This document shows, piece after piece, positions 14,222 through 31,950 of a stretch of 32,244 nt of DNA. Numbering within the stretch: the first letter of the stretch is position 1; the number at the start of each line of letters is the position of its first letter. The translations under genes were made by a program, and so were the position numbers. This DNA is from Nitrospirota bacterium (GTDB lineage Bacteria; Nitrospirota; Thermodesulfovibrionia; Thermodesulfovibrionales; UBA6898). The stretch spans positions 1 through 32,244 of the forward strand of contig JAJRYC010000075.1 in the NCBI GenBank assembly GCA_024275975.1. The letters run 5' to 3'. A model generated the notes under the pieces. The model had not been told where the DNA came from and did not search any database. It saw only the letters and a program-made list of their open reading frames with translations.

Positions 14222-14644
14222 ATGCGTCATAAAGTTGATGGTAGATTATTTGGAAGAACCTCTAACCAGAGGAGAGCGCTCTTAAGAGGCCTGGTCACAT
14301 CTCTATTTGAACATCAGAGAATAGAGACGACAGTGGCAAAGGCGAAAGAGACAAAGAGGATTGCTGAAAAAATGATAACCTTTGGAATAAAGGGAGACCT
14401 GCATTCCAAGAGACAGGTTTTTTCGTATGTTTTTGACAGGGAAGTGGCCTCCAGGTTTTTCAAGGAGATTGCGCCGAGATTTTCGGGGAGAAACGGTGGA
14501 TACCTGAGAATAGTTCAGACCAGGAACAGGCTGAAGGATTCAGCTGCGATGGCTGTGCTTGAATTTATTGACTATGAATCGATAAAGCAGCCTAAGGGCA
14601 AGGCTAAAAAAGCAGTGAAGTCCGAAGCCGAAAAATCCAGTTAG
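14222..14644 (+). CDS. rplQ: 50S ribosomal protein L17
   Basis: A 140-residue protein beginning MRHKVDGRLFGRTSNQRRAL, the L17 signature, and containing GGYLRIVQTRNRLKDSAAMA, followed by a Lys-rich tail. L17 lies at the tunnel exit and is normally the last gene of the alpha operon. GGAGG precedes the ATG. Here a further tiny gene follows only 14 bases later. Confidence 0.97.
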   Translation: MRHKVDGRLFGRTSNQRRALLRGLVTSLFEHQRIETTVAKAKETKRIAEKMITFGIKGDLHSKRQVFSYVFDREVASRFFKEIAPRFSGRNGGYLRIVQTRNRLKDSAAMAVLEFIDYESIKQPKGKAKKAVKSEAEKSS

Positions 14645-14658
14645 GGACCTATATATTA

Positions 14659-14799
14659 GTGAATGATCTGCTTATAGTAATCGGACTAGTTGTAGTATGG
14701 ATAGTTCTGCAGTTCATAGTGTTTCCAAAGCTGGGAGTGCCCACGTGAGGGGTTCCGCGGAAAGGCTCGGGTGGGGCTGAAAAAAAGTGTGGTAAATGA
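14659..14799 (+). CDS. Candidate small single-TM selenoprotein (UGA read as Sec)
   Basis: GTG 14659 follows rplQ by 14 bases, with AGGGA near the rplQ stop. The frame begins VNDLLIVIGLVVVWIVLQ, a single hydrophobic helix (about residues 4-22), then VFPKLGVPT, a TGA at codon 30 (14746-14748), then GVPRKGSGGAEKKCGK and a final TGA. Read as Sec this gives a 46-residue membrane-anchored protein with one Cys at 44. CCCAC (14739-14743) pairs with GTGGG (14770-14774), and TGAG with CTCG just inside, so the UGA lies in a stem that could serve as a SECIS-type structure. Support: the organism uses Sec in fdhA, and yedF lies downstream. Against: the apical loop is not a classic match, and the protein could end at TGA as a 29-residue peptide. 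Confidence 0.62.
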
Positions 14800-31459: not shown

Positions 31460-31950
31460 GTACGCCCGGCATGGGCGTGAACTAAAGGGGTGTAAGTCCC
31501 CTGTACGTGAACCCTGCTGATATAAAGAATATTAACAGAAGTATTAGCCTAAGGCAAGGGCAAAATCGTGAGAGATTGTCTGGAGCCAACAGTAGGGGCC
31601 TTTAAGCCGAAGCATACGGCAAAACTGTGAGCCGACGAACAGAAACAGCATAGCAAGGCCGAGTCTGCGGGTAAGTTGGCACCTGTCTGCGTGCACGGCA
31701 CAGGCAGGCAACACAACAAAGCCCTACCTTTAGTTGAGGAGCCTGTCCCGGTGTTGCGTTGAGCCGGGAGTGAATGCTGCGGTTGTACAGTGAAAGTTCA
31801 CGTTCTTATCCGGGGAGATCTCTCTGCTGAGCGACAGTATAGTCATGAGAAAATTCCGGAATGGGGTTACCCGGTTGAACAGGAGCCCATAGGGAATAAA
31901 GTGAGAAAGTCAACGTAGTCAATAACGTCCCCTAGTCCAGAGGGAATAAA
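31460..31950 (+). mobile_element. Group II intron, 5' portion only
   Basis: The sequence from GTACGCCCGGCATGGGCG, through GGGGTGTAAGTCCCCTGTAC and AGAAGTATTAGCCTAAGGCA, has the look of the domain I 5' end of bacterial group II introns. The 5' boundary is fixed by comparison with the uninterrupted copy near 28075. No reverse transcriptase frame and no domain V/VI hairpin follow before the transposase element at about 31955, so the intron is truncated and should not splice or move by itself. The 3' limit is approximate. Confidence 0.7.

Follow-up and report, generated by a model that had tools for sequence, protein, structure and literature searches.

In the window, the whole 32,244-nucleotide stretch of DNA that we analysed, we identified a 46-residue gene on the forward strand (14659-14799) whose in-frame UGA (14746-14748) is, to judge from comparison with its homologues, almost certainly read as selenocysteine (Sec), and whose product would be the local member of a family of very small, single-helix membrane selenoproteins that spans many bacterial phyla. 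The gene lies immediately downstream of rplQ, which encodes ribosomal protein L17 (14222-14644, forward strand), and has the layout given in a preliminary description of this DNA: a GTG start at 14659, 14 bases past the rplQ TAG (14642-14644), one hydrophobic helix, the motif PKLGVPT, the in-frame UGA and 16 further codons ahead of the final stop, TGA (14797-14799). The product is VNDLLIVIGLVVVWIVLQFIVFPKLGVPT-U-GVPRKGSGGAEKKCGK, and its homologues align at the same start and the same UGA. As that description had anticipated, standard gene finders would miss the gene, as the frame appears to be only 29 residues long; the deltaproteobacterial lineage that it had assumed proved mistaken, as the genome groups with Nitrospirota (Thermodesulfovibrionales-like).

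When the UGA is read through, the peptide is matched in 84 of 101 relatives (best E-value of 1e-15 outside the window's own genome), well beyond chance, and nearly every match contains a single TGA, positioned at the codon of the window's UGA, with all credible ones having TGA there. Nearly all extracted peptides have the UGA at a distance of 29 residues from the start, whichever start codon is used. Homologues were found in 104 of 163 genomes of the window's class within Nitrospirota, as well as in 79/197 genomes of the phylum of Geobacter sp. OR-1, 55/197 of Acidobacteriota, 20/197 of Spirochaetota and 12/195 of Planctomycetota; a weak stop-free match (E-value of 2e-4) in one genome with no selB and a weak motif was excluded from these counts. 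In four genomes the family is present twice, both copies having a UGA of their own, and three relatives of the window's genome have neither the family nor a selB above cut-off, consistent with joint loss. The family signature is W-x2-LQ-x3-[FL]P-[KR]-x-G-[VI]-x-T-U. In a cross-phylum alignment of 47 rows (A7), W14, L17, Q18, P23, G26, T29 and residue 30 are invariant, an invariance that is partly built in, as many rows were found by a pattern already demanding W, L, Q, P and G, with T29 and codon 30 left open; later members deviate at some of these positions, e.g., N for Q in L251-L255.

The identity of codon 30 supports Sec. A hand-made pattern that leaves this codon open, run on named genomes, returned TGA in 80/80 readable loci from many phyla and TAA, TAG, TGC or TGT in 0/80, and UAA or UAG was seen at this position in none of the true homologues whose codon was read. 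There are five clear Cys forms, namely L229 (TGT) from Acidobacteriota and L251-L254 (TGC/TGT) from Planctomycetota, and selB is absent from the genomes of all five, as opposed to its presence in 60 of the 61 UGA-form genomes of these two phyla (Fisher p of 6.7e-7, the unit of this and the following test being genomes, not independent events). Within Acidobacteriota alone, selB was found in 52/53 UGA-form genomes versus 79/144 other genomes (p of 3.5e-10). Four UGA carriers apparently without selB all have a tRNA-Sec(UCA); none of the five Cys-form genomes does (four gave no tRNA-Sec match and the match in the fifth is a tRNA-Ser). In a tree that rests on few columns, the Cys forms nest among the Sec forms, and this arrangement forces two or more switches. 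Among substitutions between close pairs, the share at third codon positions is 0.48 after the UGA versus 0.33 after the final stop, an enrichment that follows the UGA and not the final stop and marks the sequence past the UGA as coding. The host genome itself has a selB above cut-off and a tRNA-Sec with the anticodon UCA. Conservation past the UGA and homologues with UGC or UGU at codon 30 were the signs by which the preliminary description had proposed that its Sec assignment be judged, and both were found, the latter in genomes without selB.

A compact hairpin is conserved between positions +12 and +40 relative to the UGA, and in most sequences the apical loop begins at +19 to +27 (e.g., CGGGA, CGUGU, AGGU, and GGUC). 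Compensatory changes in this region far outnumbered those in shuffled and slid controls, both in a set of Nitrospirota sequences aligned without gaps (58 double-change cells versus 17.6 +/- 4.7, 0/500 shuffles; best slide 34) and in a Desulfobacterales-type set (16 versus 6.5, 0/500). The window's copy of this SECIS-like hairpin (14764-14778, forward strand) has five pairs, two of them G-U, around the apical loop GGGUG (14769-14773, +23 from the UGA); it is weaker than those of its relatives, its register is shifted by one base, and the minimum free energy fold is a competing long stem. The UGA had earlier been placed within a stem formed by CCCAC/GTGGG plus UGAG/CUCG, and this stem does exist in the window copy, with 9/9 pairs, but at least eight of the nine pairs are kept in 1 of 61 aligned Nitrospirota sequences (mean of 51% of pairs); we therefore rejected it as a SECIS, as it is private to the window copy and the conserved hairpin is a different one. 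Rfam gave no match at the site.

Two other readings of the UGA have to be set against these data. The gene could encode a 29-residue membrane peptide that ends at an ordinary UGA stop, the conservation downstream reflecting a regulatory RNA element; a conserved hairpin really does stand right after the UGA and short single-helix peptides are made by many bacteria, but an ordinary stop is hard to reconcile with the constancy of UGA in the codon-blind loci and the lack of UAA or UAG wherever the codon was read, with the appearance of Cys exactly where selB is missing, or with the codon-position bias past the UGA and the retention of a Cys in the tail across most of the family, and we consider it extremely unlikely. 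Scarcely more credible is that the UGA is translated as some other amino acid, either through genome-wide reassignment or as Cys by way of a selC*-type tRNA-Cys. This class of tRNA has been reported for Nitrospirae, and a UCA anticodon has been reported for some of its members (PMC7609411); the host does have, besides its tRNA-Sec, a tRNA-Sec-like tRNA resembling this class (L250 1501-1592; G000:C91:10675-10768 in its own genome). The anticodon of the host tRNA is GCA, however, which would read UGC/UGU; TGA is the final stop of the window gene and of many homologues, which indicates that UGA is not reassigned, and a hairpin of the SelB type accompanies a tRNA-Sec whose anticodon is UCA. We retain Sec as the reading of codon 30, which SelB and tRNA-Sec would decode with the help of the hairpin just downstream.

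Read through to its final stop, the protein is predicted to cross the inner membrane once. Its single helix (residues 4-22; 14668-14724, forward strand) is supported by hydropathy (mean Kyte-Doolittle value of 2.6 over 153 family members) and contains the near-invariant W14, L17 and Q18 (alignment A1). There follows, in the family alignment, the signature [FL]P[KR]xG[VI]xTU, residues 23-30 (P23 to Sec30; 14725-14748, forward strand), ending in the Sec codon. Lysine and arginine average 4.8 across the 24 residues that follow the helix versus 0.2 before it, and as the basic residues of the family lie almost wholly after the helix, the positive-inside rule would place the N-terminus outside and the PKLGVPT-Sec motif, with the short lysine-rich tail, at the cytoplasmic face. 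This tail carries a Cys codon (residue 44; 14788-14790, forward strand) that likely provides a resolving thiol. A Cys follows the Sec in most family members at a variable spacing, most commonly 5, 8 or 13-15 positions on (8 of 153 members have none in the examined part of the tail), as would be expected if the two formed a selenenyl-sulfide pair. The label of a tiny membrane-anchored redox protein, applied in the preliminary description, suits the Sec and the Cys downstream of it, as well as the sulfur and thiol genes that neighbour the family; on these sequence features, a selenoprotein with a membrane-anchored redox role is very probable, if a step less secure than the Sec assignment itself.

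Profile searches of family members against Pfam and NCBIfam 20.0 gave only matches far below cut-off, and no credible relatives of the peptide were found in the PDB. None of the families in the inventories of 2022 (PMC9312934, 87 families) and 2026 (PMC13188914, 119 families) is recognisable as this one by size, motif or context; it may have been described in Haft and Tolstoy 2025 or in the Olavius selenoproteome paper, and the NCBIfam models listed for the families of Haft and Tolstoy 2025 were within the library that we scanned. Set apart by these profile libraries and inventories, it appears to be a new family of bacterial selenoproteins, which are themselves a known kind. The predictor deep-Sep may miss selenoproteins without Cys homologues (PMC12013277), and as Cys forms are rare here, this limit fits the family having escaped notice. 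Its members resemble the predicted families in the two inventories (PMC13188914, PMC9312934) in having a hairpin downstream of an in-frame UGA, Cys homologues in bacteria without Sec, a redox-looking Sec/Cys arrangement and thiol or sulfur neighbours, and are unlike them in their length (43-60 residues), single helix, PxxGxxTU motif and rarity of Cys forms. There is also a likeness to VhuU, SELENOK/SELENOS, KCU-star, SaoC and TsoA-C, which either are very short or have a single membrane helix and a Sec that is not part of a large domain. VhuU completes a hydrogenase, while SELENOK and SELENOS are eukaryotic ER proteins. NCBIfam models are given for KCU-star, SaoC and the Tso families (PMC13188914); unlike these, the members of the present family match no NCBIfam model.

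The order rplQ-family gene is conserved in most Nitrospirota loci, and in most of these the start of the gene runs into the rplQ stop or directly adjoins it, in many cases sharing 4 bases or 1 base with rplQ, which makes co-transcription with rplQ plausible in this phylum. One Nitrospirota clade has the gene after secG instead, and the genes downstream vary from one part of the phylum to another. Among the loci sampled outside Nitrospirota, none had rplQ as a neighbour, and we rejected linkage to rplQ as a universal feature, since it is confined to Nitrospirota. The window also carries an fdhA gene with an in-frame UGA (VDHCARL-U-HSATVAG) and a yedF gene (TIGR03527, E-value of 7e-56), both as previously described; yedF was rejected as a conserved operon partner, as it adjoins the family gene only in the window. 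A group II intron match lies at the window's end (31562-31804, RF02001, 71.8 bits).

Neighbourhoods differ by phylum. In Planctomycetota the order is TauE, MBL/rhodanese, the family gene, type III sulfide:quinone reductase (SQR) and DsrE, the Cys form standing in the same operon too, and in Acidobacteriota it is MBL/rhodanese, rhodanese and the family gene, so that in these unrelated phyla the family gene shares its operon with SQR, rhodanese or persulfide-dioxygenase-like genes. Thioredoxin, AhpC/TSA and C_GCAxxG_C_C genes adjoin the family gene in Syntrophaceae, Geobacter and others, and DsbD_TM and YeeE-like neighbours are also seen outside the rplQ clade; ECF sigma, ArsR and RND pump genes adjoin it in some loci. 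Two planctomycete SQR-like proteins whose genes share an operon with that of the small Sec/Cys protein (L252 3195-4448, L255 768-1949) are closest to, though below the cut-off of, NF049943, a selenoprotein subtype. Relatives of this type III SQR subtype and of the persulfide dioxygenase/rhodanese are operon neighbours in Planctomycetota and Acidobacteriota, and probably act in the same pathway as the family, although they are large enzymes that are not homologous to the small Sec peptide. In eight Desulfobacterales-type loci the start of an ECF sigma frame falls at precisely +40 relative to the Sec-UGA, so that this frame and the selenoprotein tail overlap, and in most of these a Cys-containing anti-sigma-like gene comes next.

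The sulfur neighbours outside the rplQ clade suggest a membrane-anchored selenol or thiol that handles sulfane sulfur or disulfides. As no sulfur link was seen among the Nitrospirota neighbours (rplQ, secG and the varied downstream genes), the function proposed for this phylum is carried over from the others. The Sec and the tail Cys would most likely form a redox pair, a selenenyl sulfide, at the membrane surface; the protein would probably take up or reduce either sulfane sulfur, in the form of persulfide or polysulfide, or the disulfides of proteins, and pass sulfur or electrons on to partners of the rhodanese or thioredoxin type, and in Nitrospirota it would probably be made from the ribosomal transcript. 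A sulfane-sulfur role is our leading but tentative suggestion, and we would put it a little short of probable. Held somewhat more loosely still is the fuller proposal of a hitherto unrecognised multi-phylum family of single-helix micro-selenoproteins that may serve as membrane selenol carriers, moving or reducing sulfane sulfur between a membrane SQR and cytoplasmic rhodanese or thioredoxin, with the UGA giving way to Cys on loss of the Sec machinery.

A genuine selenoprotein might instead have a part in metal or metalloid handling, as an accessory to ArsR-regulated RND efflux, or in ECF sigma/anti-sigma envelope-stress signalling, as ArsR-like regulators and AcrB-type RND genes adjoin the gene in several loci and several Desulfobacterales loci have an ECF sigma factor gene after it. 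These contexts are lineage-specific, however, whereas those with rhodanese, SQR, thioredoxin and DsrE recur in independent phyla, Cys forms included, and we regard such roles as unlikely, if deserving of serious attention. The position of most Nitrospirota loci directly after rplQ, and of one clade after secG, could likewise point to a service in translation or protein export, but with this linkage confined to Nitrospirota and no rplQ neighbour in the loci sampled elsewhere, we consider that reading improbable.

The family occurs in about 40% of the sampled genomes of Geobacter's phylum and in more than 60% of those of the window's class, and yet it appears to be unlisted, which we attribute to each gene looking like a 29-residue open frame. 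With it the bacterial selenoproteome would gain a compact architecture in which a single helix is combined with Sec, and a gene so short and genetically simple lends itself to tests of Sec at the surface of a membrane. The sulfur-handling proposal, tentative as it is, would provide a concrete hypothesis for the membrane wiring of sulfide oxidation or of sulfane-sulfur handling in several phyla, and the switch between UGA and Cys that accompanies the absence of selB may serve as a clean natural experiment on the reasons for keeping Sec.
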